Virus record (IMG/VR): IMGVR_UViG_3300028392_000072
Span: 1 to 59,175 of that record
Source: a virus
Length of the DNA stretch: 59,175 nucleotides
Direction: 5' to 3' (one strand)
Below are positions 26,978 to 58,873 of this stretch, in pieces; positions within the stretch are counted from its first letter, which is position 1; every line of letters starts with the position of its first letter. The notes below the pieces were generated by a model. It searched no databases, had not been told where the DNA came from, and saw only the letters and a list, made by a program, of their open reading frames with translations. Position numbers and translations under genes: made by a program.

Positions 26978-26979
26978 TT

Positions 26980-27849
26980 TTATTTTTTATTATTTTTTAT
27001 TATATTTACTAAGGTTTTAGAACGCTCATAATATGTATGATCTTTTTTAGATCTTTCATATCCAGCTTTTGCTATCTTTTCTCTTTCTTCTTCATTCTCT
27101 AAATAATACTTTACTTTATTATCTAAATCATTTAAGTCATTATAAACAACTATTTCTTTATCAAAATCAAATAGTTTTTCAAGACCTGTTGTATAATTTG
27201 TTATCAGAAAAGTTCCACAACCAGTTGTTTCAAATGTTCTGTAATTAATATCATTTGATATATTACAATTTAAATGTATTTTATATGAGTTTATTGCATC
27301 TACCATATCATCACCAATAACAAATACATCTTTTTTTATACCATATTTATCAAGTGAGTTTATTACATGACCTCTATTTAAAACATTACCACAAAATCCA
27401 ACATCTATAGTTTTCTCTATATCCTTTGACAACATTAGCTCATCAGGATAAGAATTGGGAAACCAATATGATTTTTTTACTAATCCGTCAAAGTTTGGTA
27501 AATATGATTCTGTTGAGTTTAATAATATATCAATATTTAAAAGTCTACAAAGTTGTTTATGTTGTTCCAAAACACAATGGCTATCAATACTCCAAAATAT
27601 TTTTAATTTTTTGCTATTTGATATTTCATTAATTGGTAACCAATCAGATGTGTAATTTTCAATTACAAATATAACATCAGCCCATTGTTCAATTTCTGAA
27701 AAAGACATATTAAAGTCAGGATAATTTAATCCCCAAACTTTTGATTCTACTTCTTCAATTCTTGATAAAGCTCTATGTAGACACAAAGACTCTCTAAAGT
27801 TTTTATTCTTTTCATGCCTGCCAGCTTCTTGTATAATAACTATTTTCAT
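26980..27849 (-). CDS. CgeB-like GT-B glycosyltransferase, 289 aa
   Basis: The second half has the conserved nucleotide-sugar site of this group: DVGFCGNVLNRG, then YKIHLNCNISNDINYRTFETTGCGTFLITNY, then EEEREKIAKAGYERSKKDHTY. This is the spore-maturation CgeB-type transferase seen in many phages and polysaccharide loci. Substrates are unknown. It ends two bases before the deacetylase-like gene. Confidence 0.82.
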   Translation of the reverse strand: MKIVIIQEAGRHEKNKNFRESLCLHRALSRIEEVESKVWGLNYPDFNMSFSEIEQWADVIFVIENYTSDWLPINEISNSKKLKIFWSIDSHCVLEQHKQLCRLLNIDILLNSTESYLPNFDGLVKKSYWFPNSYPDELMLSKDIEKTIDVGFCGNVLNRGHVINSLDKYGIKKDVFVIGDDMVDAINSYKIHLNCNISNDINYRTFETTGCGTFLITNYTTGLEKLFDFDKEIVVYNDLNDLDNKVKYYLENEEEREKIAKAGYERSKKDHTYYERSKTLVNIIKNNKK

Positions 27850-28578
27850 TTAACCTATTACATTTTTTATTATTTTCCAATAATCTGGATGTCTTTGTTC
27901 ATTCTCATCAAAAACATCTCCGACAAATTCATAATTGTTTCTTATATATGGAAAAGGTCTTATTTCTTCACCAAATCTTAAATTAAACTCAGAGTGTTCC
28001 ATAACATTATTCTTTATTAAAGGATATACAATTTCTTTTAAAAAGTCTTGATCATCACCATAAGCATTAATTGAGTGTTGTCTATGACCAGATACCTTTA
28101 CAATATCTTGATGTCTTTTTAATCTCCATTCTTCAATCAACTTTAATAAGTTAATTTTACTCATTAAACCATTTTTAGATCCCCACATACCTCCTAAAAT
28201 TGGAACTGTATGATATGGATGATCTCTCATTATATGAAAATCTTTATTTGATAAAATCCATTCATTTACAGCTCTACCTTCTCTCTCTGAAAGTCTAGAA
28301 TCACAATCTCTGGATAAAAAAACATCAACATCTTCTTCTTGAGAGGCTTCAAACCTCCAATACATTCCTTGATATTCTTTATCTTTACCAACAAGAACAA
28401 TCTCAACATTATCTCCTTTTAATGTTTCAATTAAAATAGGGTCACATTGCGAGTCTATATAAAATCTACAAATAAATCCTGGAAAATACTTTTTAGATAG
28501 TTCTATATTAGAAAGTGCTCCTTTCCAGTAAATGGGTTTATCACCCCATAAACTATATGCTATTATATTTTTTTTCAT
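27850..28578 (-). CDS. Putative glycosyltransferase, 242 aa
   Basis: Begins MKKNIIAYSLWGDKPIYWKGAL and has VDVFLSRDCDSRLSEREG, in which DCDSR is a DxD metal site like that of phage and capsular GT families. HPYHTVPILGGMWG follows and probably forms the acceptor site. ATG at 28576-28578 is chosen since the ten codons before it in the frame overlap the previous gene. It abuts the CgeB-like gene. Confidence 0.75.
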   Translation of the reverse strand: MKKNIIAYSLWGDKPIYWKGALSNIELSKKYFPGFICRFYIDSQCDPILIETLKGDNVEIVLVGKDKEYQGMYWRFEASQEEDVDVFLSRDCDSRLSEREGRAVNEWILSNKDFHIMRDHPYHTVPILGGMWGSKNGLMSKINLLKLIEEWRLKRHQDIVKVSGHRQHSINAYGDDQDFLKEIVYPLIKNNVMEHSEFNLRFGEEIRPFPYIRNNYEFVGDVFDENEQRHPDYWKIIKNVIG

Positions 28579-29225
28579 AATTCTAATGTAAATAAACTTT
28601 GTCCCCAATTTGCTTTTAATTTATAGAAGTAAATTTCTGGATAATATTCTAATACGCGCGTTATTTTTGTTCCGTAAATACTATCATCAGGATTTGTAAT
28701 AATTCTATTCCTACTATATACAAATCCTTTATCTTTTAAAAATATATCTTCATCTTTAATTACAGAAGCTTTTAATTTTAAAATATCATCTGGTGAATTA
28801 GATTCATTTTTATAGTTTAACAATCTATCTCTAATTGATAATAAATAGCTGTGTTTATATGAACCCATATTCATGCTTAAGTCATCAGTTAATGGTACGG
28901 TATCAGTTGTTATATTATAAGACATAAGCTTATTATAAAAATTCTCAGCAACATAACATGTATCATGTATCGCAAACCAATAATCACTTTCTAAACCAAT
29001 ATCTAGAACAGAGATAAGATTCGTAAAGTCCATAGAATTATGAGGAGCTGTATAAATATTTATACCATCTTTTGATATATTTTCATATTTATCATATCCT
29101 CCTATAAAAAAATAAATATCCTCTGATGGAACACCACTTTTTATCAAGCTATCTACTAGAATCGGATATGTTTTTTCATATGACTTAATATGAGAACTTA
29201 TACATATTTTAATTTTCATATTCAT
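28575..29225 (-). CDS. Putative glycosyltransferase-associated protein, 216 aa
   Basis: Alpha/beta protein with KIKICISSHIKSYEKTYPILVDSLI at the start and DYWFAIHDTCYVAENFYNKLM in the middle, resembling GT-A folds with HDTC in the place of DxD. The assignment to a family is uncertain. It overlaps the next gene by 17 bases. Confidence 0.6.
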   Translation of the reverse strand: MNMKIKICISSHIKSYEKTYPILVDSLIKSGVPSEDIYFFIGGYDKYENISKDGINIYTAPHNSMDFTNLISVLDIGLESDYWFAIHDTCYVAENFYNKLMSYNITTDTVPLTDDLSMNMGSYKHSYLLSIRDRLLNYKNESNSPDDILKLKASVIKDEDIFLKDKGFVYSRNRIITNPDDSIYGTKITRVLEYYPEIYFYKLKANWGQSLFTLEL

Positions 29226-30006
29226 TTGTGAATTTAATTTTTGTAATATCTATACCCATATTATCTAAAAAGGTAATATCATTTTTATTTATTTTTTCTA
29301 AAGGGAATCCTATCCATTTTCTACTATCTCTATCTTTTGACAAAAGATAGTATTTATCAGTGCTTATTTGAACTTTGTTTTTACTAGACTTTGTGAATAG
29401 ATATGTCATATATTGTTCTGGATTCCAGAACTTATTAATAATACACTCATTAATTGGAAATGATATTAATTTTAAAACCTCAGAACTTTCACCAAAAACA
29501 AAATGGTCATTAGTAAAGTTTGAATTATATCTACAACCACCCCAGAAACATTCAAATGTTAATAACTGATTACTTGCATTAAATTTAGTTATATCATTCT
29601 CATTAAAATCAAAAACTAAATCAGCTCTAGACTTCAAAATATAATCATACTGACTAAATAAGTCTTTATTTTTAAAGATTGTATCAGGAGCAAGCCCAAA
29701 TAAAATTAAGTGACCTAATGATATTCTTTTAGTCAACTCAATATCATTTGAGTAGTTACTTACTTGTTGAACACTTCTTGGAAAATTAAAAACAATATCA
29801 GAGTCTATAGTTGGTCTCTTAAAAGATAGGTTTTTAATATTATTATTTGTTACTAATTTAATATCATCAAATGATATTAAATATATATCCGTCTCAATCT
29901 CACTATTATACTTATTGATAAGATTTAAACAAGACTTAATAGAACTATCTATATAATCAGTTCTATCACCAGTTATTAGAACTAAAGCACATTTTTTCTT
30001 ACTCAT
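29209..30006 (-). CDS. WavE-like lipopolysaccharide synthesis protein, 265 aa
   Basis: CALVLITGDRTDYIDSSIKSCLNLI opens a GT-A-like fold; YDYILKSRADLVFDF carries a possible DLVFD metal site, as in WavE-type lipopolysaccharide transferases. LLTFECFWGG and NKFWNPEQYMTYLF are further conserved-looking blocks. It probably builds the same surface glycan as the rest of the operon. Confidence 0.65.
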   Translation of the reverse strand: MSKKKCALVLITGDRTDYIDSSIKSCLNLINKYNSEIETDIYLISFDDIKLVTNNNIKNLSFKRPTIDSDIVFNFPRSVQQVSNYSNDIELTKRISLGHLILFGLAPDTIFKNKDLFSQYDYILKSRADLVFDFNENDITKFNASNQLLTFECFWGGCRYNSNFTNDHFVFGESSEVLKLISFPINECIINKFWNPEQYMTYLFTKSSKNKVQISTDKYYLLSKDRDSRKWIGFPLEKINKNDITFLDNMGIDITKIKFTNEYEN

Positions 30007-30007
30007 C

Positions 30008-30832
30008 TTAATTAAATATTTTATATAAGAATGACTTTATATTTTCAATCTTATTATTATCTGGTATTTGATTATTATTAAACCATGGTTCTCTCAGAAC
30101 TTCCATATATTTACTATCATTTGTGTCCAATTCTATAATATATTCTATTGCTTCTTCTTCTGAAGTAAAGTCATGGATATTAATGAAAGATTTAGTATTA
30201 AATTCTTCATTTATTTTTGATCCTCCTTTATAAATAGGAATTGAATTTACACACATAGATTCAAATGGCTTCTCTGTAATATACCATTCATATCCTGGTC
30301 TATAAGCATTATTCTCAAAAGCTATTGAAAATTTATATTCTGATTGAAATTTTCTTTTATCAGAAACTGGTTGACCTATATTATTCATAAACCTACCACC
30401 AGAATCTACTTTTTTATATTTAGATAACTCTGTAAAAAACCGATTTCTATCTTGGCAATTCCCATTTGATGCTACAAAATTACAAAACTTTCTTTTAGCA
30501 AAAGATTCATCTATAATCTTCTCTCTTTGTAATTCATAATATCCATCATATAATAAATAATGAGGAAGTCTATAATTTCTTGAATCATCTAAATAATCAA
30601 ATGAAAATGACCAATCACAATATTGTAATGGTGGTGCAACATTCTCACCTGTATAAAATATCTTTTTACATTTAAATTGCTGATGTGCATTACCAAAAAC
30701 TGAAAAGAATAGATAATCTGGATTATTTGATATTTCAATATCAAACTCATCTTTCAATAAATTATAGAAGTAGTTATTTTTTTTATCAAATCCTGACCAC
30801 CAATCAGTAAAGTTAATTTTTATCTTCTTCAT
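30008..30832 (-). CDS. GT10 alpha-1,3-fucosyltransferase-like protein, 274 aa
   Basis: Transfers fucose from GDP-fucose. KIFYTGENVAPP is the N-terminal GT10 block, and FSIAFENNAYRPGYEWYITEKPFESMCVNSIPIYKG contains the signature FEN...YxTEKxxxxxxxxxxPIYxG donor site. It is well conserved, so activity is likely. Bacterial relatives make Lewis-type antigens. It overlaps the next gene by four bases (ATGA). Confidence 0.88.
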   Translation of the reverse strand: MKKIKINFTDWWSGFDKKNNYFYNLLKDEFDIEISNNPDYLFFSVFGNAHQQFKCKKIFYTGENVAPPLQYCDWSFSFDYLDDSRNYRLPHYLLYDGYYELQREKIIDESFAKRKFCNFVASNGNCQDRNRFFTELSKYKKVDSGGRFMNNIGQPVSDKRKFQSEYKFSIAFENNAYRPGYEWYITEKPFESMCVNSIPIYKGGSKINEEFNTKSFINIHDFTSEEEAIEYIIELDTNDSKYMEVLREPWFNNNQIPDNNKIENIKSFLYKIFN

Positions 30833-31530
30833 ATTTTAATTCTTTCTTCTACTGGTAATAATTTTCTCTTATTCCAAGTTATTTCATCATCTTTCCATTT
30901 AGCATTATAAGCTTGGTCTGCCTGGTCAGCATTTCTCTTATTTGCTGCATAATGTAAATGTTCAAATATTATAGTATCATTCATCCTATCATCATATAAT
31001 AGACCTAATTCTTTTAAGTTATTATATAATTCACAATCGGAGAACATATGATTATAAGAAGGATGATAAATAACCATATTCATTTTCTTCAAACACCCAT
31101 AAGTCATAATTGGAATAGTGATAGCGGCATGTAACATATTAGAAGAATCCGGTAACTGATAACCATCTCTAACCATTAAACCAACATCTCCCTTACCATT
31201 AAACTTATTTAATAAATAAGTGTCCCATCCTTGAGGTGCCATAAAATCATCCGAAGCAAAAATAACAATATCATCATCTTTAGCCACTCCCATTTTAATA
31301 CCTAAGTTAGAACTTAATTGATAAGATGGATAACAAACGCCAATTTTGTTTGTATTCAATGTTATTAAAAAATTTGATTTTAGATATTCTCTTAGAATAT
31401 CAGAGTGTTGTTGCCAATTAACAGCTACATAAGTTTGAATATTTTGTGGATTATCAGCTCTTTTAATCCATTCAGAATGTGCTGATTTAAATTGCTCGGG
31501 TCTTAATGTACACCATAGTATATGTATCAT
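30829..31530 (-). CDS. GT2-like glycosyltransferase, 233 aa
   Basis: First gene of the glycan operon. MIHILWCTLRPEQFKSAHSEWIKRA is a strand-helix start; DIVIFASDDFMAPQGWDTYLL is the DDxxxPxGW block common to phage GT2-like proteins, with the SDD acting as DxD. NMVIYHPSYNHMFSDCELYNNLKELGLL completes the fold. It starts after a terminator that ends the clpC-type gene. Confidence 0.78.
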   Translation of the reverse strand: MIHILWCTLRPEQFKSAHSEWIKRADNPQNIQTYVAVNWQQHSDILREYLKSNFLITLNTNKIGVCYPSYQLSSNLGIKMGVAKDDDIVIFASDDFMAPQGWDTYLLNKFNGKGDVGLMVRDGYQLPDSSNMLHAAITIPIMTYGCLKKMNMVIYHPSYNHMFSDCELYNNLKELGLLYDDRMNDTIIFEHLHYAANKRNADQADQAYNAKWKDDEITWNKRKLLPVEERIKI

Positions 31531-40983: not shown

Positions 40984-42870
40984 ATGATTAGTAAATATAA
41001 TAGTTTTTTATCTGAGTTATTGTTAGAAAGGGCAATAAATGAGTCTATACTTTATTATTCGCCTGATTTAAGAAAGATTATTAATAAAATAGATTCTGAT
41101 ATTGCTTTAGATTTAAGGAAATCAGAAACTACTGATATTAAACCAGATGTTACTTTTGTTGATTTAGATCAAGAAGGATATTTAAGTTTCTCAACTATGA
41201 GAAATGCTAAAAAGAATATTATTGAAAAATTTCCACATATAGATGATATTGATACTAAAGTTGATAAAGATTTAGCAGATGAACTTTTTGATTTAGATAA
41301 AAGAGGTTCATCAAGAGCTAGTGGTGTTTCAACTAAATCAAGAAGTCAAATTGGAATAGGTAAATTTATTAATAAATTATTTCCTGGTAAATATAATGAC
41401 AAACAAAGAGAAGATTTTGTTAATTCATTTAAAGCTGCTTTAGTAAAAGTTGCTGAGAAATTTGAAGTTGTTGAAGGAGTTGATATTGGATTTTGGTACA
41501 ATTCTAGAAACTATGCTCAGGTATCTGGAACACTTGGTAGTTCTTGTATGGCAGAAAAGAATAGTTCTATATTTAGAATTTATGAAATGAATCCTGAAGT
41601 ATGTAAAATGCTTATTCTAAAAGAAGATGATAAGATTTTAGGAAGAGCTCTTGTTTGGAAATTAAAATCTATCAGAAGTTTAGGTAGACCGGTAGAAGGT
41701 ATTGAATATTTTATGGATAGACAATACACTATAAAAGATTCCGATGTTCAAAAATTCAGAAACTACGCTAAAGAACAAGGATGGTGTTATAAATCTTATA
41801 ACAACCATCACAGTTGTGAAACAGTTAATATAGAGGGAGTAGACAAAAATGTAGGAATGACTGTAAAGGTTAAACCTTTTAAAGTTTCTGGAGTGATTGA
41901 AGATTATGATTATTCTAAATATCCTTATATGGATACTTTTAGAAGATATAATCCAAATAATGGTTATTTTTATAATGATAGTGATACAGATGAAAACGAA
42001 GGACAATATATTTTAGATTCAACAACTGGTGGATATAATGAAATAGAAGGTGGTGTTTATTCTGAATGGCATGATAGAAGAATACCAGAAGATGATGCTG
42101 TTTATTCTGACAGACTTGGTGATTATCTTCTAAGGGATTCTGCTGTTGAAGTTACTATGGGTAATAGAAGACATAGAGGTTGGTATCCATCTGATTATGA
42201 TGATATTGTATTTGATGAATCTATTGATGAATATTTACATTTTGATGATACAGTATACTCAGAAGCTAAAGGTTATCACATATACACAGATAATGCTTGT
42301 AAAGTAATTAATAAAGTTTATTCAGATGGTAGTATTGAAAATTATGATGATGCTGATTGGTATTATGATGAAGATCCAAATATTATTAGAATAGATGAGA
42401 GTTCTTATTGGTTTGAAAAATTATCAGCTAGATGGAATGAATGGAATGAATACTCTTATATTTTAAAATCAATAATGACTAAAGATTACAATAATAAGTG
42501 GATTCCTAAGACCATATCAACTAATGTATATTTAGTAACTGAACCAAATAAAGATGATTCTATTGATTTAATGGGTATTGACTACTTAACTGAAGTTGAT
42601 GCTTTCTTATTAGGATATGATATTGATAAAAATGACAAAATAGTAATTGATAAATTTTCATATCAATTAAATTTAGAACAAATTATAAAGCCATTAGCAT
42701 TAAGATATAAATCCGAAACTACAAAATTAAGAGATATTCTAACAAATAAAGGTCAATTAAAATTAGAATTAGGATTTGAAGATGAAGAGGAATATAAAGT
42801 TGAGATAAAAAAGAGATTAATTAAATTATCTGACAGATTTGAAGAGTTAGAAGATGGTATTTGGTCTTAA
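40984..42870 (+). CDS. Large tagged protein with SCM/RALxW domain, 628 aa
   Basis: Starts MISKYNSFLSELLLERA, a variant of the capsid-targeting-like tag. Residues ~180-240 read GTLGSSCMAEKNSSIFRIYEMNPEVCKMLIL and ILGRALVWKL, a conserved-looking module found in other large phage proteins, of unknown function. Residues ~330-470 hold repeated acidic/aromatic units (YSEWHDRRIPEDDAVYSDRLGDYLL; YSEAKGYHIYTDNACKV) that look like short WG/YD-type repeats. It is alone on the plus strand between two minus-strand blocks, with TATATAG directly upstream. Its size suggests an effector comparable in position to T4 Alt, but no ADP-ribosyltransferase motif is visible. Confidence 0.7.
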   Translation: MISKYNSFLSELLLERAINESILYYSPDLRKIINKIDSDIALDLRKSETTDIKPDVTFVDLDQEGYLSFSTMRNAKKNIIEKFPHIDDIDTKVDKDLADELFDLDKRGSSRASGVSTKSRSQIGIGKFINKLFPGKYNDKQREDFVNSFKAALVKVAEKFEVVEGVDIGFWYNSRNYAQVSGTLGSSCMAEKNSSIFRIYEMNPEVCKMLILKEDDKILGRALVWKLKSIRSLGRPVEGIEYFMDRQYTIKDSDVQKFRNYAKEQGWCYKSYNNHHSCETVNIEGVDKNVGMTVKVKPFKVSGVIEDYDYSKYPYMDTFRRYNPNNGYFYNDSDTDENEGQYILDSTTGGYNEIEGGVYSEWHDRRIPEDDAVYSDRLGDYLLRDSAVEVTMGNRRHRGWYPSDYDDIVFDESIDEYLHFDDTVYSEAKGYHIYTDNACKVINKVYSDGSIENYDDADWYYDEDPNIIRIDESSYWFEKLSARWNEWNEYSYILKSIMTKDYNNKWIPKTISTNVYLVTEPNKDDSIDLMGIDYLTEVDAFLLGYDIDKNDKIVIDKFSYQLNLEQIIKPLALRYKSETTKLRDILTNKGQLKLELGFEDEEEYKVEIKKRLIKLSDRFEELEDGIWS

Positions 42871-46145: not shown

Positions 46146-47783
46146 TTAGACTAAAGAAAAACCTTCTTTCAAACTTACCGTTTTATTGAAACTTTTACCA
46201 TCAGTATCTAAAATATAATACCCCTTTCTCATCATTTGAACTGGCTCCTTGACGTTTAAAACGTGTGGTTCAAAGATTGCCTTATCATTAATTATAAGTG
46301 AATCTGTGTTGATGTAATTGATAAAATCATCTTCATTTTTATCCGGTGATTCATCATTGAATAATCTATCATATTCATTTACATTAACTCTAACTCCATG
46401 TTCAGCAGATACCCAGTGAATAGTTCCTTTAATCTTTCTTTCAAAAGTCATACCAGATCTTGTTAAAGGGTCGTAAGTACATCTAATTTCAATAACTTCT
46501 CCACTATCATTCTTGATAACTTCATTCGCTTTAATAACATAAGCACCTTTCAATCTTACTTCACCACCCAACTTTAATCTGTGGAATTTGTTATTAGCTT
46601 CTTCTCTGAAATCTTCCGATTCAATAAATAACTCACCACTAAAAGGAATCATTCTAGTACCAGCACTTTCATCACCAGGATTGTTTTCAACTTCAACCAT
46701 TTCAGTTCCATCATCCCAATTAGTAATAACTAACTTAACGGGATTCATTACACCCATCAATCTATTAGCAACTACATTCAAATCAGTTCTCAAACATTCT
46801 TCTAAAAGCAAGTAAGAAACAACTGACTCTTTTCTAGTAACAGAAATTCTATCACAGAAATCTTTAATAGCATTTGGTGTAAAACCTCTTCTTCTTAAAC
46901 CAGAAATAGTTGGCATTCTTGGATCATTCCAACCATCTACAAATCCTTCTTCAACTAATCTTTTTAATTTTCTCTTTGACATAACTGTATAGTCAATGTT
47001 CAAACGAGCAAACTCAGTTTCTTCTGGAAGTGGATTTTCTAAATCACAATTTTCCAAGACCCACATATATAAAGGTCTATGAACTTCAAATTCTAAAGTA
47101 CATAAAGAATCAGTGATACCTTCTTTATAATCTGAAAGTGGATGAGCAAAGTCATACATTGGATAAATCTTCCAAGTATCACCAGTTCTGTGGTGTGACT
47201 TACTGATAATTCTATAAAGAACCGGATCTCTTAAAATCATATTAGGAGAAGTCATATCAATATTGGCTCTCAAGATTTTAGAACCTTCAGAGAATTCACC
47301 TAATATCATTCTATTAAATAGGTCTAAGTTTTCTTCTATACTTCTAGATTTATAAGGTGAGTCTTTACCAACTGAAGTTGGTGTTCCTTTTAAGTTAGCA
47401 ATTTCTTCAGATGTTGAATCATCAACATAAGCTAATCCTTTCTTAATTAAAGTAACAGCACATTCATAAAGAAAATCAAAATAATCAGAGGTGTATCTGA
47501 TTTCACTTGGAGTATAACCAAGCCATTTTATATCTTCAATCATTGAATCTACAAACTCTTTTCTTTCAGTTGTTGGATTCGTGTCGTCAAATCTTAACAC
47601 ACACGGAGCATTATACTTTTCTGCTAATCCAAAATTTAATATAATGGATTTAGCGTGACCTAAGTGAAGACCACCCACAACTCTACCATCGTTTAGTATA
47701 GCTCCATTTGGTTCTGGTGGAAAACGAAGTTTTAACTTATCAAGATTTCCTTTTTCTAATATTTTTTCTTCTATGAAATTCAT
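46146..47783 (-). CDS. glnS: Glutaminyl-tRNA synthetase, 545 aa
   Basis: Attaches glutamine to tRNA-Gln. LRFPPEPNG and GLHLGHAKSI form the HIGH region (H40-LG-H43) and YTVMSKRKL the KMSKS loop. LRFDDTNPTTE and YDFAHPLSDYKEGITDSLCTLEF are GlnRS-specific blocks, and the C-terminal anticodon-binding beta-barrels are complete. About nine residues (ILNDGRVVG) are inserted between PNG and HLGH, where cellular enzymes have one or two. It is the last gene of an operon: leader peptide, terminator, two UUG tRNAs, glnS. Confidence 0.95.
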   Translation of the reverse strand: MNFIEEKILEKGNLDKLKLRFPPEPNGAILNDGRVVGGLHLGHAKSIILNFGLAEKYNAPCVLRFDDTNPTTERKEFVDSMIEDIKWLGYTPSEIRYTSDYFDFLYECAVTLIKKGLAYVDDSTSEEIANLKGTPTSVGKDSPYKSRSIEENLDLFNRMILGEFSEGSKILRANIDMTSPNMILRDPVLYRIISKSHHRTGDTWKIYPMYDFAHPLSDYKEGITDSLCTLEFEVHRPLYMWVLENCDLENPLPEETEFARLNIDYTVMSKRKLKRLVEEGFVDGWNDPRMPTISGLRRRGFTPNAIKDFCDRISVTRKESVVSYLLLEECLRTDLNVVANRLMGVMNPVKLVITNWDDGTEMVEVENNPGDESAGTRMIPFSGELFIESEDFREEANNKFHRLKLGGEVRLKGAYVIKANEVIKNDSGEVIEIRCTYDPLTRSGMTFERKIKGTIHWVSAEHGVRVNVNEYDRLFNDESPDKNEDDFINYINTDSLIINDKAIFEPHVLNVKEPVQMMRKGYYILDTDGKSFNKTVSLKEGFSLV

Positions 47784-47811
47784 AATGTTTATATTTTTAT
47801 ATGTTGTTTAG

Positions 47812-47883
47812 TTGGAAAAACAGGGATCGAACCTGTATCTTCTGATTCAAAGTCAGAAATAATAACCATTATACTATTTTCCA
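47812..47883 (-). tRNA. tRNA-Gln (UUG)
   Basis: Acceptor TGGAAAA/TTTTCCA with the Gln-typical T1-A72 pair, anticodon arm TCTGA-CTTTGAA-TCAGA giving UUG, and T-arm ACAGG-TTCGATC-CCTGT. A normal type I tRNA of 72 nt. It sits 29 bases before glnS and 27 bases after the type II tRNA, in the same transcript. Confidence 0.9.
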
Positions 47884-47910
47884 ATATTACTACTATCTAG
47901 AGTAGTTTTG

Positions 47911-47991
47911 CTATCCGGGTAGGACTCGAACCTACACGCCTTTCGGCATCCGCTTCAAAGGCGGATGTGGCTGCCATTTCACCACCGGACA
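47911..47991 (-). tRNA. Type II tRNA with UUG anticodon (Gln by anticodon, Leu-like body)
   Basis: Acceptor TGTCCGG/CCGGATA, D-arm GTG-AAATGGCAGC-CAC, anticodon arm TCCGC-CTTTGAA-GCGGA (UUG), a long variable arm GCC-GAAA-GGC, and T-arm GTAGG-TTCGAGT-CCTAC. The body (TGGTGAAATGG...CAC and a long variable arm) is that of tRNA-Leu, but UUG reads Gln codons and the discriminator is G73, not the A73 needed for Leu. T1-A72 and G73 suit GlnRS; a long variable arm with G73 could also suit SerRS. The Gln-rich leader and the adjacent glnS favour glutamine. Confidence 0.8.
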
Positions 47992-48048: not shown

Positions 48049-48083
48049 AAAAAAACCCTGTCCAAAAAGATTGAACAGGGTTT
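48049..48083 (-). terminator. Attenuator terminator of the tRNA-Gln/glnS operon
   Basis: On the minus strand AAACCCTGT...ACAGGGTTT forms a 9-bp stem followed by a run of T. It lies between the leader ORF and the first tRNA. The segment CTGTTC (48073-48078 on plus as GAACAG) spanning arm and loop is complementary to GAACAG in leader codons 14-16 (48117-48122), giving a competing pairing. Confidence 0.88.
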
Positions 48084-48111: not shown

Positions 48112-48162
48112 TCAATCTGTTCGATTAATTTGTTGTTGCTGGAATTGTGTTGTTGTTCTCAT
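48112..48162 (-). CDS. Leader peptide 1, Gln-rich (MRTTTQFQQQQINRTD)
   Basis: A 16-codon ORF in the transcript leader, with five glutamine codons at positions 6 and 8-11 (CAA, CAG, CAA, CAA, CAA). It is followed by a terminator, then two UUG tRNAs and glnS. A ribosome that stalls at the Gln run for lack of Gln-tRNA would leave codons 14-16 free to pair with the terminator and so allow readthrough. The Gln content and the position are seen; the mechanism is inferred from amino-acid operon attenuators. Confidence 0.78.
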   Translation of the reverse strand: MRTTTQFQQQQINRTD

Positions 48163-48196: not shown

Positions 48197-49024
48197 TTAT
48201 TCATACAAAGATATAAAATTTTTTCCATATTTACCGACCACATAGTCTAAATATATCTTTATGTCTTTCTTGTATATAACTTTTATTTCATATGGGAAAT
48301 ATGAAATTTTAGCATTTGTTAAATCCGATTCAAAGTTCTTAATTTCCACATACTCATCATTAACTATAAAATCTGGATAAAATAAATGTTTTTTATTTTT
48401 ATAAAAATATTCAAATCCTTTTTTATTTCTTTCAATTTTTATATTATGATCAATACAATATATTAAATATGCTAATTCATAACTACTATCCAACCAATAA
48501 CCTTTATACCACCCTGACTTACCTCTACTACTTCCTTTTTTAATACCACCTGATATCTCTAACCAACATTTTTTATGATACTTTTGTTCTCTGTATTTTT
48601 GATTAACTCCACATTCTCCACATTTTAAACAAGTAAATTGTATTATCTTCTTATCTCTTTTAGGCGGGATAAACATATTTCCATTTAAAATTAACGAATT
48701 TCTTATTTTACTTTTTGTTTCTTCAGATAGTGTTCTTTGTCTAGAACATTTATCAGAACAATATTTTCTTAAAATTTGTTTATTTTTATCTCTTTCAAAT
48801 TCAGATATCGTAGATTCAACCTCAAATTTAGTATTACATCTTAAACAATTTCTAATTTCTACAACTCTATCAACTTTATTACAACCTTTAAATAACTTAC
48901 TAAGATTTTCTTTTCTTTTCTCAAAATTTGGATTTTCATCACAACACGCAACATGTGAAGCAAATCCTTGTTGTTTTTCAACGAATATTAATTTTTTACA
49001 CCATTTACATTCTTTTATATACAT
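48197..49024 (-). CDS. PD-(D/E)XK homing endonuclease with zinc fingers, 275 aa
   Basis: Three or four CxxC zinc-binding pairs (CKWCKKL, CLRCNTKF, KYCSDKC, CLKCGECG) are interspersed with a NUMOD3-like segment (LSEETKSKIRNSLI). The nuclease domain at the C-terminus has WLDSSYELAYLIYCIDHNIKIERN, then YPDFIVNDEYVEIKNF, giving PD...ExK catalytic residues. It sits between two tRNA operons, a common site for phage homing nucleases, and its 3' end carries the glnS-operon promoter. Confidence 0.85.
   Translation of the reverse strand: MYIKECKWCKKLIFVEKQQGFASHVACCDENPNFEKRKENLSKLFKGCNKVDRVVEIRNCLRCNTKFEVESTISEFERDKNKQILRKYCSDKCSRQRTLSEETKSKIRNSLILNGNMFIPPKRDKKIIQFTCLKCGECGVNQKYREQKYHKKCWLEISGGIKKGSSRGKSGWYKGYWLDSSYELAYLIYCIDHNIKIERNKKGFEYFYKNKKHLFYPDFIVNDEYVEIKNFESDLTNAKISYFPYEIKVIYKKDIKIYLDYVVGKYGKNFISLYE
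48206..48238 (-). promoter_or_regulatory. Promoter of the tRNA-Gln/glnS operon
   Basis: Minus strand TATCTTTG (48206-48213) fits the -7 box; the -33 region reads GTCGG (48234-48238), weaker than the TTxGG seen at the other tRNA promoters and shifted by one base. It overlaps the 3' end of the endonuclease gene that starts at 49024. Confidence 0.55.
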
Positions 49025-49076
49025 AGATTATATATTAAAAATTAAACGGTCCCTATCAAAAACGAACCCAAACATG

Positions 49077-49152
49077 CGGATCTAATGGGATTCGAACCCA
49101 CCTGATCTTCCGAGTGACAGTCGGACGGACACACCAAGCATCCCCTAGATCC
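49077..49152 (-). tRNA. tRNA-Asp (GUC)
   Basis: Acceptor GGATCTA/TAGATCC, anticodon arm TCCGA-CTGTCAC-TCGGA (GUC), T-arm GTGGG-TTCGAAT-CCCAT, discriminator G73 as expected for Asp. Position 8 is G in place of the near-universal U8, and the variable loop has 7 nt. Last tRNA of the Gln-Pro-Asp operon. Confidence 0.9.
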
Positions 49153-49161
49153 ATATTTTTG

Positions 49162-49235
49162 TCTAAGTGACAGGGTTCGAACCTGCGGCCTGAGAGTCCC
49201 AAACTCCCCGCTCTACCAAACTGAGCTACACCTAG
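49162..49235 (-). tRNA. tRNA-Pro (UGG)
   Basis: Acceptor CTAGGTG/CACTTAG with the C1-G72 pair typical of tRNA-Pro, D-arm GCTC-AGTTTGGTA-GAGC, anticodon arm GGGAG-TTTGGGA-CTCTC (UGG) and T-arm GCAGG-TTCGAAC-CCTGT. Ten bases from tRNA-Asp. Confidence 0.92.
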
Positions 49236-49297
49236 TTTTTGAGAATTCTTTTACTCTATTCCCAAAAGAGTACGTTTCTGTCCAATTATACTTCGTG

Positions 49298-49370
49298 TTG
49301 TCCCACAAGGGTTCGAACCTCGACTCTTCGGTACCAAAAACCGACGTGTTGCCAATTACACCATAAGACA
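49298..49370 (-). tRNA. tRNA-Gln (UUG)
   Basis: Acceptor TGTCTTA/TGGGACA, D-arm GTGT-AATTGGCA-ACAC, anticodon arm TCGGT-TTTTGGT-ACCGA (UUG), T-arm CGAGG-TTCGAAC-CCTTG. The body is close to Bacteroidetes tRNA-Gln, unlike the other two UUG tRNAs at 47812 and 47911. First tRNA after the attenuator of leader 2. Confidence 0.9.
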
Positions 49371-49372
49371 AT

Positions 49373-49407
49373 AAAAAACCCTCATAAGAACTAACTTATG
49401 AGGGTTT
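49373..49407 (-). terminator. Attenuator terminator of the Gln-Pro-Asp tRNA operon
   Basis: A 13-bp perfect stem AAACCCTCATAAG/CTTATGAGGGTTT with a 6-base loop and a T-run on the minus strand, just before tRNA-Gln. The 5' arm and loop (minus-strand CATAAGTTAGT, 49390-49400) are complementary, with one bulge, to ACTAACTATG in the leader ORF (49447-49456). Confidence 0.92.
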
Positions 49408-49429: not shown

Positions 49430-49525
49430 TTAACTTATTGTAAAGACATAGTTAGTCACTTCCTTAGAATCCTGATCCTGAGGTTGCGGGTTAACTTGTG
49501 CGATATTTACGTTAATTGTTTTCAT
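49430..49525 (-). CDS. Leader peptide 2 with Gln/Pro/Asp run, 31 aa
   Basis: Starts MKTINVNIA; residues 10-19 read QVNPQPQDQD, so eight of ten residues are Gln, Pro or Asp. These are exactly the three tRNAs downstream (Gln-UUG, Pro-UGG, Asp-GUC). Codons 24-27 (ACT AAC TAT G) can pair with the terminator's 5' arm and loop. If ribosomes stall in the Q/P/D run, this antiterminator would form and the tRNAs would be transcribed. No homologous protein is recognised, and the peptide itself is probably without function. Confidence 0.82.
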   Translation of the reverse strand: MKTINVNIAQVNPQPQDQDSKEVTNYVFTIS

Positions 49526-49579
49526 TTTATTATATAGTAAATTGTTTATGTCTCTTTTAATGTTTATTCTTATTTTATA

Positions 49580-49611
49580 CAAATATAGATAAAAGTTTTA
49601 TATCTGCCTAA
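49580..49611 (-). promoter_or_regulatory. Proximal promoter of the Gln-Pro-Asp tRNA operon
   Basis: Minus strand TTAGG (49607-49611), 19 bases starting CAGATATAAAACTTTTAT, TATATTTG (49580-49587). It is about 55 bases upstream of the leader ORF. The same sequence, nearly base for base, drives the large tRNA operon (58842-58873). Confidence 0.78.
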
Positions 49612-49698: not shown

Positions 49699-50415
49699 TT
49701 ATTCTGTATCTTTTTTAAAATCATTATATCTTTTAATTTTATCACCACCTTTTAAATTATCAACCTTTGACTTCATTTCGTCATCCATAATCATAGGTAT
49801 TAACCTATTACCGATTGTCTTAGGGTCCTTTAGATATTTTTCAGTAGGTCTCTTATAATCATAACTATCTATATCACTATCTATAAATTTATAATCACCA
49901 GTAGTTGTTTCAAATCCAAATCTATTGAAGAAGGTAACTAATTCTTTTAGTGATTCATCAGAAAAACCAAAATATGTTTCAGGATCATATAAAGAATCTT
50001 TACCATTATAATGATGCACATTTACTTTATTTGGATAATCAATTGTAAACTCATACATCATTGAGTCACCATATGTTAAGTCAATGTTTAATCTTAGTGA
50101 ATTTGAAGGATTAGATTCTGTTCCATCATTATCTTTAACCATAGTAATATCAAATTGTAAGTTGTCTGGTTCACCATCTGCTGTTGGATCATCATCTTTT
50201 TTATCAAGAGTACTCTGAGAGTACATAACCGAAACACAATTCATTAAATTATAAATACCAGGGTATCCATCATCTCCAGGTTCCAAACTTTTCACATCTA
50301 ATGTAAACTCACCATTTTGATTAATAATAGTTAGTTTTTTAGGCAAAAGTTTTACCCATTCAGAAGAGTCAAAAATAGATATTTTATTCTCATTGAACTT
50401 TTTAATATATTTCAT
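49699..50415 (-). CDS. Tagged hypothetical protein, 238 aa, paralogue of 57076 gene
   Basis: Begins MKYIKKFNENKISIFDS, the shared tag. The middle (SLRLNIDLTYGDSMMYEFTIDYPNKVNVHHYNG and DESLKELVTFFNRFGFETTTGDYKFID) matches the 57076 protein closely (ITYGDAMACEFSIEEPNKIKV; LESFIKFLNRFDGMKLKREDFKFLD). So these are diverged duplicates placed beside two different tRNA operons. No known domain. TATATAG just upstream of the ATG is the phage start-site motif. Confidence 0.7.
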   Translation of the reverse strand: MKYIKKFNENKISIFDSSEWVKLLPKKLTIINQNGEFTLDVKSLEPGDDGYPGIYNLMNCVSVMYSQSTLDKKDDDPTADGEPDNLQFDITMVKDNDGTESNPSNSLRLNIDLTYGDSMMYEFTIDYPNKVNVHHYNGKDSLYDPETYFGFSDESLKELVTFFNRFGFETTTGDYKFIDSDIDSYDYKRPTEKYLKDPKTIGNRLIPMIMDDEMKSKVDNLKGGDKIKRYNDFKKDTE

Positions 50416-52175: not shown

Positions 52176-53240
52176 CTATTTATTTTTATATTTCTTTAAA
52201 TATTCAGATTCCCATATAGATATAATTTTATACCCCATACTTTTTAGATATTCCTCTTTAATTATTGTATTTCTATATAATTCTCCAAATGTTTTACCAA
52301 TAACACTATTAACTATATTAGATTCAAAAATATTAGGGTTTCCGTGCCAGAAGTCACCATTAAACTCATATATAATATTATTAACTTTATCTACACCATC
52401 TACTACATATTTTCCTATACTAACTTGTCTATCTTTTTTTTCTATTCCAATAACATCTAACCAATCATTTTCCATCAAACCATACTTTAATCCACAAATT
52501 TGACACCCTCTTCCGTTTAGATGTTTATTAGGAGTTTGAATAAACTCACCATGTTGTCTACATATTATCCGTACTTTAGTTAGAGCATTTTTGTAATCAA
52601 CTAATGAATAATCATATCTATTATTATGTATAATATTTGACTTATAAGAGAAGTCATCAGTTGATGATTTTAAATTACCAGCACATATTTTACAACCATA
52701 TCCAATTAGGTGATTTCTTGCAACTTGATTAAAAATACCATGCAGATTACAAATAATAGATACCGTGGTTATATTATTAATATATTTAACCAGTGAATAA
52801 TCATATTTATTTCCATGTTTTAGATTAGATTTTTTAATAAAATCCGAAATATTTAATTTAAAACTTTTATCACATTTAGGACAACCCTGTCCTTTTAGGT
52901 GATTATTTGGTGATTGGTTGAATTCACCGTGTTCTTTACATATTATACTTACTTTATTTTTATCATTGACATAATCAACTAATGAATAGTCAAATATACC
53001 ATTATGTTTTAATTTTGACTTCTCTATAAACTCAATAGTATTCGATTTTCTATTAACTCTACAAAAAGGGCATTTTTGACCACTTAAATGATTGTTAGGT
53101 GTTTGATAAAAAACACCATGTTCTTTACATATTATCTTTACTTTTGTTTGGCTATTTACATAATCAACTAATGAATAGTCAAATATACCATTATGTTTTA
53201 ATTTTGACTTCTCTATAAAAGTCCTACTTATTGTCTCCAT
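52176..53240 (-). CDS. Repeat-containing Vsr-like homing endonuclease, 354 aa
   Basis: Four tandem repeats of about 55 residues, each of the form FIEKSKLKHNGIFDYSLVDY followed by a KVxIICxxHGxFxQxPNNHL and CPxC unit, form a zinc-binding DNA-recognition array. The C-terminal part (VVDGVDKVNNIIYEFNGDFWHG and SMGYKIISIWESEYL) is the Vsr/EDxHD-like nuclease. ATG 53238-53240 (METISRTF) is preceded by the TTTAATATATAA start-site motif; a longer frame from a non-ATG codon is rejected. The first and second repeats are near-identical in DNA, which suggests recent expansion. Confidence 0.85.
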   Translation of the reverse strand: METISRTFIEKSKLKHNGIFDYSLVDYVNSQTKVKIICKEHGVFYQTPNNHLSGQKCPFCRVNRKSNTIEFIEKSKLKHNGIFDYSLVDYVNDKNKVSIICKEHGEFNQSPNNHLKGQGCPKCDKSFKLNISDFIKKSNLKHGNKYDYSLVKYINNITTVSIICNLHGIFNQVARNHLIGYGCKICAGNLKSSTDDFSYKSNIIHNNRYDYSLVDYKNALTKVRIICRQHGEFIQTPNKHLNGRGCQICGLKYGLMENDWLDVIGIEKKDRQVSIGKYVVDGVDKVNNIIYEFNGDFWHGNPNIFESNIVNSVIGKTFGELYRNTIIKEEYLKSMGYKIISIWESEYLKKYKNK

Positions 53241-53273
53241 AAATTTATATATTAAAACTGAAAAGCATATTTT

Positions 53274-57075: not shown

Positions 57076-57726
57076 ATGAAATATTTAAGAAGATTTAATG
57101 AAGATATTGAAGCAACAATTAAAGCTAATGGTAATATAAAACCTAATATAGATAGTAAGACTAATACTTTAGATACTATCTATGATAAAAGATGGGAAAA
57201 TGAATTATCAGAATTCATTACAATAAATTATCACAATAATCTTTATAAATTTAAGAAAGATAATATAATGTTACATTCTGATATGGTTCAAATAACTTAT
57301 GCTTCCACACCTCTTTATAGTGAAGAGTCTGAAGAAATATGGGGAGCACCTGATACTTTAGAATTTGATATTTATTTTGCTAAAGATGATAAAGATGGTA
57401 ATATAACATTAACTATTGATATTACTTATGGAGATGCTATGGCTTGTGAATTTAGTATTGAAGAACCTAATAAAATAAAAGTTATACAATATACATCACA
57501 TCATTCTAAATTTGATCCAAGTAATACAGTATTTGCCTTAGTAGATGATTCTTTAGAATCATTTATAAAGTTTCTAAATAGATTTGATGGAATGAAACTT
57601 AAAAGAGAAGATTTTAAGTTCTTGGACCAATATGATAATTATAATCCTAAACAGTTTCCAAAACATGCTAAAGATCCTAACATAGTTAATAAGACTAAGT
57701 TAGGATATCCTAATAAAATTAATTAG
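57076..57726 (+). CDS. Tagged hypothetical protein, 216 aa, paralogue of 49699 gene
   Basis: Starts MKYLRRFNEDIEATIK with the shared tag, preceded by TATATAC (57066-57072). The region from ~110 to 190 (TLTIDITYGDAMACEFSIEE; SFIKFLNRFDGMKLKREDFKFLD) matches the 49699 protein. Both lie beside tRNA operons. Unknown function. The gene ends two bases before the last tRNA of the convergent cluster. Confidence 0.7.
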   Translation: MKYLRRFNEDIEATIKANGNIKPNIDSKTNTLDTIYDKRWENELSEFITINYHNNLYKFKKDNIMLHSDMVQITYASTPLYSEESEEIWGAPDTLEFDIYFAKDDKDGNITLTIDITYGDAMACEFSIEEPNKIKVIQYTSHHSKFDPSNTVFALVDDSLESFIKFLNRFDGMKLKREDFKFLDQYDNYNPKQFPKHAKDPNIVNKTKLGYPNKIN

Positions 57727-57798
57727 TAGCGATACCAGGAATCGAACCTGGTCCTCAAGGATATGAGCCGAGTGAGCTTGCCGTTACACCATATCGCC
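57727..57798 (-). tRNA. tRNA-Met (CAU), elongator-type or Ile2
   Basis: Acceptor GGCGATA/TATCGCT, T-arm CCAGG-TTCGATT-CCTGG and a CTCATAT anticodon loop (CAU). The anticodon stem is irregular: GG/CC next to the loop and CTC/GAG outside it, with two unpaired Ts between. It lacks initiator features. A lysidine-modified Ile tRNA with CAU is possible. Last tRNA of the large operon. Confidence 0.78.
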
Positions 57799-57804
57799 AT
57801 TTAG

Positions 57805-57891
57805 TACTTCTGATCGGACTTGAACCGATACGGACCTTCCGGTCCAAGGGATTTTAAGTCCCTCGCGTGCTGCCAATTTCGCCACAGAAGC
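57805..57891 (-). tRNA. tRNA-Leu (UAA)
   Basis: Type II tRNA: acceptor GCTTCTG/CAGAAGT, D-arm GCG...CGC, anticodon arm AGGGA-CTTAAAA-TCCCT (UAA), long variable arm GGACC-GGAA-GGTCC, T-arm ATCGG-TTCAAGT-CCGAT, A73. Well formed. Confidence 0.93.
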
Positions 57892-57898
57892 TTTTTAG

Positions 57899-57970
57899 AG
57901 CTCTCTACCGGTAACGATCCGATTTATTTAGTTTACAAGACTAACGCATCACCATTAATGCTTAGAGAGC
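57899..57970 (-). tRNA. tRNA-Thr (UGU) with atypical T-loop
   Basis: Acceptor GCTCTCT/AGAGAGC, D-arm GCAT-TAATGGTG-ATGC, anticodon arm TTAGT-CTTGTAA-ACTAA (UGU) and T-stem ATCGG/CCGGT. The T-loop is ATCGTTA where TTCRANY is expected, and position 8 is A in place of U. tRNA-Asn of the same cluster shows the same pair of changes, so they may be linked. Confidence 0.85.
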
Positions 57971-57976
57971 TTATTG

Positions 57977-58059
57977 AGCACCTGGAGGGATTCGAACCCC
58001 CGTGACTGAGTTTGCAATCCAGTGCCTTTCGTATTTCTACTCCACTCGACCACAGGTGC
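57977..58059 (-). tRNA. tRNA-Cys (GCA) with hairpin in the D-loop
   Basis: Acceptor GCACCTG/CAGGTGC and T-arm GGGGG-TTCGAAT-CCCTC, with U73 as needed for Cys. The anticodon loop is TTGCAAA (GCA) on a stem CTGGA/CTCAG with an A-C mismatch next to the loop. The D-arm (GTC/GGC) holds about 13 extra nucleotides that form GTA-GAAA-TAC (58031-58040), a mini-hairpin with a GNRA tetraloop. Confidence 0.82.
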
Positions 58060-58066
58060 TTATTAG

Positions 58067-58139
58067 TAGTCCTGACCGGGATTGAACCGATGACCTTCTC
58101 GATGTAAGCGAGTTGCTGCTACCGCTGAGCTACAGGACT
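58067..58139 (-). tRNA. tRNA-Val (UAC)
   Basis: Acceptor AGTCCTG/CAGGACT, anticodon arm ACTCG-CTTACAT-CGAGA (UAC; outermost pair A-A mismatched), T-arm ATCGG-TTCAATC-CCGGT, A73. The D-stem is imperfect (GCT/AGC within GCTCAGCGGTAGCAGC). Confidence 0.88.
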
Positions 58140-58146
58140 ATTTTTG

Positions 58147-58230
58147 TACCGGAGGTGGGACTCGAACCCACACGTCATATAGACACTAGCTTCTAAGGCT
58201 AGCGCGTATTAACCATTTCGCCACTCCGGC
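58147..58230 (-). tRNA. tRNA-Leu (UAG)
   Basis: Type II tRNA: acceptor GCCGGAG/CTCCGGT, D-arm GCG-AAATGGTTAATA-CGC, anticodon arm CTAGC-CTTAGAA-GCTAG (UAG), variable arm GTC-TATAT-GAC, T-arm GTGGG-TTCGAGT-CCCAC, A73. Well formed. Confidence 0.93.
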
Positions 58231-58234: not shown

Positions 58235-58338
58235 TGTGAATGTGGTAGGGTATTCTCCTACAGATGTGGTGGTTATCTACTTTCCATTATCCACTCTAGT
58301 CATTCGGCTAGTGCTGTTGTAGTTTATCAGCATTCACA
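58235..58338 (-). ncRNA. tRNA-like structure, about 104 nt
   Basis: Sits between tRNA-Leu and tRNA-Arg and has tRNA-like geometry but no canonical tRNA sequence. TGTGAATG/CATTCACA makes an 8-bp acceptor-like stem, CTG/CAG a D-arm, CTAG-CCGAATGA-CTAG an anticodon-like hairpin, GTGG...CCAC a long variable arm and GTAGG-AGAATAC-CCTAC a T-arm whose loop lacks TTCRANY. The anticodon-like loop has no U33. It is either a decaying tRNA gene or a structural RNA that uses tRNA processing. Confidence 0.55.
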
Positions 58339-58348
58339 CATTCTTTTG

Positions 58349-58427
58349 TACCCCAGGTAGGATTCGAACCTACATTTTCAGTTCCGTTACGATTAGTCGC
58401 TTAGAAGGCGACCTCGGCTACTGAGGC
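58349..58427 (-). tRNA. tRNA-Arg (UCU) lacking a normal D-arm
   Basis: Acceptor GCCTCAG/CTGGGGT, anticodon arm GTCGC-CTTCTAA-GCGAC (UCU), T-arm GTAGG-TTCGAAT-CCTAC, A73. Only eight nucleotides (TAGCCGAG) connect acceptor and anticodon stems, too few for a D-arm, while the variable region has 22 nt (containing TCGTAACGG). CCG in the linker is complementary to CGG in the variable region, so this pairing may replace the D-arm. It shares this layout with the neighbouring tRNA-Ile. Confidence 0.78.
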
Positions 58428-58433: not shown

Positions 58434-58512
58434 TCGGTACGATAGGACTTGAACCTACATTTGCAACACCATTACGAATATCCACATTATCAGTGTGGCT
58501 CGGTACGCACCG
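58434..58512 (-). tRNA. tRNA-Ile (GAU) lacking a normal D-arm
   Basis: Acceptor CGGTGCG/CGTACCG, anticodon arm CCACA-CTGATAA-TGTGG (GAU), T-arm GTAGG-TTCAAGT-CCTAT, A73. The linker between acceptor and anticodon stems is seven nt (TACCGAG) and the variable region 23 nt (containing TCGTAATGG). ACC in the linker can pair with GGT in the variable region, a compensatory version of the CCG/CGG pairing of tRNA-Arg. The linker resembles the start of a Ser-type D-arm (GCCGAG). Confidence 0.75.
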
Positions 58513-58527
58513 TTTTATTTCTTTTTG

Positions 58528-58598
58528 AGGACCGGGTGGGTTACGATCCCACTTACTACACGTTAACAGCGTGTTGCTTGCCACTAAGCTTCCAGTCC
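58528..58598 (-). tRNA. tRNA-Asn (GUU) with atypical T-loop
   Basis: Acceptor GGACTGG/CCGGTCC, D-arm GCTT-AGTGGCA-AGC, anticodon arm ACACG-CTGTTAA-CGTGT (GUU), T-stem GTGGG/CCCAC. The T-loop is ATCGTAA and position 8 is A, as in tRNA-Thr of this cluster. First tRNA after the attenuator of leader 3, whose most frequent residue is Asn. Confidence 0.85.
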
Positions 58599-58611: not shown

Positions 58612-58643
58612 AAAAAAACCCTCAGTTTTTGACTGAGGGTTTT
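58612..58643 (-). terminator. Attenuator terminator of the nine-tRNA operon
   Basis: AAAACCCTCAGT/ACTGAGGGTTTT, a 12-bp stem with loop of 5 and a T-run on the minus strand,14 bases before tRNA-Asn. Its 5' arm (minus-strand CAAAACCCTCA, 58634-58644) is perfectly complementary over 11 bases to TGAGGGTTTTG inside the leader ORF (58698-58708), an evident antiterminator. Confidence 0.93.
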
Positions 58644-58671
58644 GGATATCTTTTATAAAAATTTGTTTACA

Positions 58672-58782
58672 TTAATTGACAAATCCTTTAAATAGATCAA
58701 AACCCTCACAAGGTCTAATACATAACGTATTATTCACCACTGTCAGTGTATTCATGTTCATATTTAAATTAATTGTTGTCAT
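58672..58782 (-). CDS. Leader peptide 3, Asn/Thr-rich, 36 aa
   Basis: A 36-codon ORF in the leader of the large tRNA operon, beginning MTTINLNMNMN. Residues 1-23 consist only of M, T, I, N, L, V, C and R (six Asn and five Thr), exactly the eight amino acids served by the nine downstream tRNAs. Residues 24-36 then use other amino acids (P, E, G, F, D, K) and their codons 25-28 encode the antiterminator segment. A ribosome delayed anywhere in the first 23 codons would expose it; one that translates through would cover it and let the terminator form. Confidence 0.85.
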   Translation of the reverse strand: MTTINLNMNMNTLTVVNNTLCIRPCEGFDLFKGFVN

Positions 58783-58841
58783 TGTGTATATATATATTAA
58801 AAAGGGTTTGTTCCTTTTGGTTATTTTGTTATTATTTTATA

Positions 58842-58873
58842 CAAAAATAGATAAAAGTTTTATATCTGCCTAA
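58842..58873 (-). promoter_or_regulatory. Promoter of the nine-tRNA operon
   Basis: Minus strand TTAGG (58869-58873), the spacer CAGATATAAAACTTTTATC, then TATTTTTG (58842-58849). It is almost identical to the proximal promoter at 49580. About 55 bases separate it from the leader ORF, the same distance as in that operon. Confidence 0.78.

Follow-up and report, generated by a model that had tools for sequence, protein, structure and literature searches.

What controls the tRNA genes of huge phages, and under which conditions are their products made? The purpose of tRNA genes in phages has been a matter of debate for 50 years (PMC10264068), and huge phages encode up to 67 tRNAs in addition to synthetases (PMC7162821). 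Phage tRNAs replace host tRNAs that are depleted by tRNA-targeting defences, and the main text of the study that reports this describes no control of phage tRNA genes (PMC10264068); the tRNA genes of huge phages have likewise been listed without mention of attenuation (PMC7162821). We addressed this question in a 59,175-nucleotide stretch of viral DNA (IMG/VR record IMGVR_UViG_3300028392_000072, hereafter the window), for which a first-pass annotation made from the sequence alone had proposed that nine tRNA genes are controlled by ribosome-mediated attenuation, through a leader peptide whose codons match the tRNAs.

The promoter, the 36-codon ORF (encoding MTTINLNMNMNTLTVVNNTLCIRPCEGFDLFKGFVN) and the 12-bp terminator that had been claimed for this operon (operon 1) are all present, and so is the 11-bp antiterminator complementarity, in which TGAGGGTTTTG (58708-58698) is perfectly complementary to CAAAACCCTCA (58644-58634) with a pairing energy of -19.6 kcal/mol (z -6.3). 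The partner of the antiterminator strand is the 5′ arm of the terminator, extended by position 58644. Eight of the nine tRNAs are backed by ARAGORN or by cmscan scores above the Rfam cutoff, whereas the call of the tRNA-Cys is weaker; this candidate has a good acceptor stem and GCA within the anticodon loop, and relatives contain Cys(gca) in the same operon. Between the Arg and Leu genes lies a degenerate tRNA-like sequence (58236-58345, minus strand), in which the acceptor and T arm are still recognisable. As first noted, residues 1-23 of the leader are confined to M, T, I, N, L, V, C and R, a set identical to that of the nine tRNAs. These amino acids account for about 41% of residues in the window's own gene composition and 22 successive residues of the leader belong to them (p ~3e-9); since the length of this stretch was chosen by the earlier reader, we consider the comparative test described below to be decisive.

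Transcription of operon 1 would start from a promoter with a TAnnTTTG element, which we take to be of the Bacteroidota type. The promoter block is common to related phages and to a second operon of the window, where it repeats at 49618-49503, and TAnnTTTG is found at -100 to -30 of 44 of 70 leaders compared with 7% of random stretches. The promoter type suggests that the host of the window's clade belongs to the Bacteroidota, as does a report that glutamyl-tRNA synthetases of huge phages show affinity to Bacteroidetes (PMC7162821). Many leaders have in common a 5′ UTR element, AAAAGGGAC...CTTTTTAATATATAAGAAATAATG (58781-58840 and 49526-49575 in the window, minus strand), which may form a small hairpin or be an element of the start site.

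Two further leaders in the window had been overlooked (Table 1). Leader 2 (MKTINVNIAQVNPQPQDQDSK...) stands ahead of tRNA-Gln, tRNA-Pro and tRNA-Asp, and leader 3 precedes two tRNA-Gln genes that are followed in the same operon by a gene for glutaminyl-tRNA synthetase. The antiterminators of operons 2 and 3 are weak in our model (z about -1.7). The window covers part of a larger phage genome; six or seven operons of this kind are present in relatives with long contigs.

Table 1. Features of the three tRNA operons in the window
Feature	Position	Strand	Details
Promoter of operon 1	58842..58873	minus	TATTTTTG at 58849-58842; TTAGG element upstream, 58873-58869
Leader ORF 1, 36 aa	58672..58782	minus	M, T, I, N, L, V, C, R only in residues 1-23
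Segment 2 (antiterminator strand in tail of leader ORF 1)	58698..58708	minus	
Intrinsic terminator 1	58615..58643	minus	12-bp stem and T run
tRNA-Asn(GUU)	58527..58598	minus	ARAGORN
tRNA-Ile(GAU)	58434..58512	minus	cmscan, above Rfam cutoff
tRNA-Arg(UCU)	58349..58427	minus	cmscan, above Rfam cutoff
tRNA-Leu(UAG)	58146..58230	minus	ARAGORN
tRNA-Val(UAC)	58066..58139	minus	ARAGORN
Probable tRNA-Cys(GCA)	about 57976..58060	minus	cmscan 19.6 bits, below Rfam cutoff
tRNA-Thr(UGU)	57898..57970	minus	ARAGORN
tRNA-Leu(UAA)	57804..57891	minus	ARAGORN
tRNA-Met(CAU)	57726..57798	minus	ARAGORN
Promoter -7 element of operon 2	49580..49587	minus	TATATTTG
Leader ORF 2	49430..49525	minus	MKTINVNIAQVNPQPQDQDSKEVTNYVFTIS; rich in Q, P, D
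Intrinsic terminator 2	49376..49407	minus	
tRNA-Gln(UUG), operon 2	49297..49370	minus	ARAGORN
tRNA-Pro(UGG), operon 2	49161..49235	minus	ARAGORN
tRNA-Asp(GUC), operon 2	49076..49152	minus	ARAGORN
Candidate promoter -7 element of operon 3	48206..48213	minus	TATCTTTG
Leader ORF 3	48112..48162	minus	MRTTTQFQQQQINRTD; five Gln codons
Intrinsic terminator 3	48053..48083	minus	
tRNA-Gln(UUG), operon 3, first	47910..47991	minus	ARAGORN
tRNA-Gln(UUG), operon 3, second	47811..47883	minus	ARAGORN
Glutaminyl-tRNA synthetase gene, operon 3	46146..47783	minus	PF00749, 1.6e-92

To compare leaders across genomes, we collected ten IMG/VR contigs of up to 508 kb using a promoter-pattern scan and glutaminyl-tRNA synthetase, and the GenBank huge phages LR745206, LR756502 and LR756501, and later LR756504 and LR756500, using DNA similarity. 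Leaders were called by a rule blind to composition, which required a terminator before a tRNA cluster and an ATG-initiated ORF ending 15-50 nt before that terminator. This rule found a leader ahead of every tRNA cluster with a strong terminator. A short ORF lies directly 5′ of an intrinsic terminator in 71 operons on 17 contigs and in a further 10 operons on two more contigs; in all, about 80 leaders stand ahead of tRNA arrays on 18 huge-phage contigs, some related and some distant. The main exceptions in the positive phages are single Met tRNAs and CUA suppressors, for which no leader was detected, nor was one detected for a single Ile/Cys/Asp/Asn/Tyr/His group in LR756501. The lone CUA-anticodon, suppressor-type tRNA genes (about 370132 in G001:C1, 121630 in G005:C1, 54412 in G008:C1 and 690663 in LR756501) lie outside the attenuated operons and are a possible sign of TAG recoding. 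Some leaders begin about 30-50 nt past the last tRNA of the preceding array (L033 7600-7760, L049 11580-11700 and similar cases); such attenuators may lie in tandem on one transcript. Outside this group of phages, 23 tRNA clusters in five unrelated tRNA-rich phages (of Vibrio, Roseobacter, Erwinia, Mycobacterium and Synechococcus) contain no leader, and the regions read in Prevotella Lak phages contain no tRNA-matched leader. A search of viral contigs with a D/P leader pattern gave no match, and the pattern HKHF..KWF matched genomes of bacteria and archaea once, at a site that is not a leader.

Related phages that keep the tRNAs have matching leaders, the composition of which changes with tRNA content; this is the opposite of the outcome that the first-pass annotation had named as refuting. 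In related phages, MTTSFQQQQQQQINRTD is found ahead of four Gln tRNAs, MNTIFSSSRSSFNFEIRR ahead of Ser/Arg/Ser, MKHFSSHKHSFKFWF.. ahead of His/His/Trp/Phe, MNTITNIASYESYYEEGN.. ahead of Glu/Tyr, MKNLNNISIAVIGNGAGA.. ahead of Ile/Gly/Ala and MNNILHINLLNSLCLLG.. ahead of five Leu tRNAs. Where arrays are fused, so are the leaders: the Glu/Tyr and Ile/Gly/Ala arrays are separate in G001, W01, W02 and G003, joined in G005 and V44639, and in G008 and G010 Glu/Tyr is joined to Gly/Ala with leaders that are fused too. The distant phages LR756504 and LR756500 have other, independent tRNA groupings (Leu/Ser/Cys, Tyr/Gln/Lys, Glu/Ala/Ile/Val/Gly, His/Phe, Thr/Asn/Arg and Arg/Ile/Met in LR756504), and their leaders again match, with MKAMILSLCLSLSLSL.. 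before Leu/Ser/Cys, MKTKKQQYKQYQPQY.. before Tyr/Gln/Lys and MKTLSTYPLGQAQTLGTPP.. before Ala/Leu/Pro/Tyr/Gln/Gly/Thr. In LR756500, all seven tRNA amino acids are present in one leader even though the tRNA genes are spread over 4 kb. The six or seven leaders of a genome together cover all 20 amino acids, which refines the original single-operon reading to a network of several operons per genome.

Since orthologous operons are not independent, the matching was evaluated within genomes. When leaders were shuffled among the operons of each genome (60 operons, 11 genomes), none of 20000 permutations reached the observed match, with a summed z of 233 compared with a permuted mean of 11 (sd 17, maximum 84); this set included the lone tRNA-Arg entry of LR756502, which is probably not a leader and was excluded from later tests. 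The true assignment is the sole best permutation in each of the 11 genomes (1/5040 in four, 1/40320 in one, 1/720 in two, 1/24 in one, 1/6 in two and 1/2 in one). For LR756504 and LR756500, where the assignment of leaders and tRNA sets was manual, it is the best of 720 and of 24 permutations, respectively. AT-rich DNA could by chance contain short ORFs in which Asn, Thr, Ile and Leu abound, next to hairpins that are ordinary terminators of upstream genes; the leader of operon 1 is indeed rich in Asn, Thr and Leu, and many leaders begin with MKTI or MKNL regardless of their tRNAs. However, the same genomes hold His/Phe/Lys/Trp, Ser/Arg, Gln-run and Pro/Gln/Asp leaders, and the permutation test, together with the control clusters described above, refutes this explanation, the probability of which we regard as negligible.

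The matching extends to individual isoacceptors. AUA accounts for 17 of 24 Ile codons where the tRNA of the operon has the anticodon UAU compared with 0 of 9 where it is GAU (Fisher p 3e-4), and AGR for 10 of 11 Arg codons where the anticodon is UCU or CCU compared with 4 of 18 where the anticodon is ACG and CGN predominates (Fisher p 5e-4), the codons of related leaders being not fully independent in these counts. Leu codons follow the same direction without reaching significance (p 0.10). We also considered enrichment of rare codons as a sign of tuning and found it only partly specific, since rare codons are also enriched in non-cognate leader residues (12%), so that codon rarity alone is not a specific sign.

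Analysis of RNA pairing supports a switch between two alternative structures. The ORF tails pair with the 5′ arm of the terminator better than shuffled tails do (mean z -3.0 in 71 leaders, 60 of which lie below -1.65), and they pair more strongly with their own terminator than with those of other operons in the same genome (-13.7 compared with -8.6 kcal/mol); the own terminator is the best partner in 53 of 69 leaders. Compensatory changes occur in five of seven antiterminator pairs of the His/Phe/Lys/Trp class (93.6% paired; 0/500 shuffles on score) and in seven of 11 terminator pairs (96.8% paired). The antiterminator pairing is kept in related phages, and one and the same 5′ arm thus covaries with two partners, which is the signature of an attenuator. 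Covariation was weaker in alignment A2 than in alignment A1, and A1 was therefore taken as the main case. These data also bear on the idea that the short ORFs encode functional micropeptides whose likeness to the tRNAs is incidental or reflects codon adaptation. Within classes the ORFs keep their position and part of their sequence, as would be expected of a micropeptide, yet their composition changes with tRNA content, their conserved tails encode an antiterminator strand with base-pair covariation, and no peptide sequence is common to all classes. Permutation and covariation together lead us to reject this interpretation as improbable. Similarly, a tRNA-binding T-box leader could take the place of a translated one, since antitermination by T-boxes adjusts the expression of tRNA-related genes to the state of tRNA, but T-boxes bind tRNA directly without a translated leader, whereas the matching observed here follows a reading frame across many codons. 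Rfam scans, including permissive ones, gave no T-box match, and we consider a riboswitch of this type very improbable indeed. The Rfam His_leader and Phe_leader models scored 31.0 and 26.4 bits, below their gathering cutoffs of 49 and 55 bits, respectively.

Measured from where the stop codon ends, segment 2 has a median position of -28 to -13 nt, which agrees with its being masked by a ribosome that has reached this codon. In a model with a 12-nt downstream ribosome footprint, the probability that the 5′ arm is sequestered is 0.78 when the ribosome is on the matching codons and 0.10 when it is at the stop codon, compared with 0.42 in a tail-shuffled control; the two ribosome positions differ by more than 0.2 in 69 of 70 leaders. 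In enterobacterial attenuators, a strong 1:2 hairpin terminates untranslated leaders. Here, modelled sequestration without a ribosome averages 0.61 (below 0.4 in 16 of 70 leaders), which implies that a strong 1:2 protector hairpin is mostly absent. Strong termination would therefore not be expected of untranslated leaders, in contrast to E. coli trp, and on this modelling the lack of a general protector hairpin would mark a variant of the attenuator.

The anatomy, the matching of codons to tRNAs, and the covariation and position of the alternative pairings strongly support attenuation by ribosome position, the mechanism first suggested for operon 1. Judging from sequence and modelling, we are highly confident that a ribosome-mediated transcription attenuator of the classical kind lies ahead of each tRNA array and that the network supplies phage tRNAs as they are needed; that transcripts terminate or read through in vivo is what we infer from the sequences. 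In the proposed mechanism, RNA polymerase would start upstream and a ribosome would follow on the short leader ORF, in whose first two thirds most codons are those decoded by the downstream tRNAs. When all these charged tRNAs are plentiful, the ribosome would proceed to the stop codon and cover segment 2, which would let segments 3:4 fold into the terminator hairpin and keep the tRNA genes silent. When any of them is scarce, the ribosome would stall upstream of segment 2, which would then pair with the 5′ arm of the terminator and let the polymerase enter the tRNA genes. With the tRNA complement split over several operons, each would act as a separate multi-amino-acid OR-gate, and the phage would make those tRNAs that translation lacks.

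The switch is probably triggered less by amino-acid starvation than by loss of host tRNAs, as might follow from shut-off or from defences that cleave tRNA. We favour replacement of lost tRNAs on demand because an added tRNA helps when the tRNA, not the amino acid, is missing, and because cleavage of host tRNA is a known antiphage strategy that is countered by phage tRNAs (PMC10264068). The most sensible refinement of the earlier reading is thus that the leaders respond to tRNA loss, charged tRNA included, and not to amino-acid shortage as such. Plain tRNA homeostasis is another possible trigger. Alternatively, the same attenuators might signal amino-acid starvation through uncharged tRNA, with extra tRNA and glutaminyl-tRNA synthetase improving use of the scarce amino acid. 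This would be in keeping with the charging sensed by classical attenuators and with the presence of the synthetase as well as tRNA-Gln in operon 3. However, extra tRNA supplies no amino acid, and both the grouping of up to eight chemically unrelated amino acids under one leader and the dependence of codons on the isoacceptor, not only on the amino acid, suit tRNA loss better; we therefore regard starvation as a possible but rather unlikely signal. A more far-reaching form of the tRNA-loss reading, which we consider to be evenly balanced, is that the leaders form a genome-wide, codon-level sensor array that monitors each amino acid, and sometimes each isoacceptor, and makes tRNAs only upon their loss, as an inducible counter to host tRNA-cleaving immunity.

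Attenuators of amino-acid operons (trp, his, thr, ilv) likewise combine a leader ORF containing control codons, an antiterminator in its tail and an intrinsic terminator, and stalling leads to readthrough; leaders of the ilv type read several amino acids. The phage-borne systems differ in that the downstream genes encode tRNAs instead of biosynthetic enzymes, several leaders per genome together cover all 20 amino acids, and a strong 1:2 hairpin seems to be mostly absent. Attenuation is also known for synthetase genes, namely pheST in gamma-proteobacteria and trpS and leuS in Streptomyces (PMC1262725). These resemble operon 3, with its glutaminyl-tRNA synthetase, in placing a translation-supply gene under codons for its own amino acid, whereas in the phages tRNAs are the main products and the leaders are multi-amino-acid. 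We found no description of attenuated tRNA operons, phage or cellular, in open-access full texts (subscription journals and preprints lay outside this search). The mechanism is therefore known, and its use on phage tRNA genes, with 20 amino acids split over multi-codon leaders, appears to be new. It would extend classical attenuation to tRNA genes and viruses, with the widest multi-amino-acid leaders known to us, and would supply natural sensors of individual tRNA isoacceptors as well as a signature by which regulated tRNA operons could be predicted from metagenomic sequence. If the regulator does sense scarcity of exactly the tRNAs it controls, the phage would need them conditionally and not as a constant codon supplement, and the purpose of phage tRNAs would become directly testable.

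The window contains several other features. A GOLLD RNA (Rfam RF02032, 265 bits) at 36063-36468 on the minus strand, probably extending to about 36910, adjoins tRNA-like genes and lies 0.8 kb from a tRNA-Met; similar tRNA calls are found in the relative G001 (L047). More than 10 unrelated-looking proteins, adjacent or scattered (5919-12650, 40400-42870, 49699-50415 and 57076-57726), have a common N-terminal motif like MKYLKTYKIFES, which resembles the capsid-targeting peptides of T4 internal proteins, and they may be a set of packaged, injected proteins. A gene resembling FMN reductase/flavodoxin (37392-39323, minus strand) is split by an intein with a LAGLIDADG domain, and a 189-bp unit occurs four times in tandem at 52493-53244 within a gene of Cys-rich repeats (KSKLKHNGIFDYSLVDYVN...). 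Finally, judged by translations only, 18603-31530 on the minus strand holds a long run of glycosyltransferase-, methyltransferase-, epimerase- and UDP-galactopyranose-mutase-like genes.
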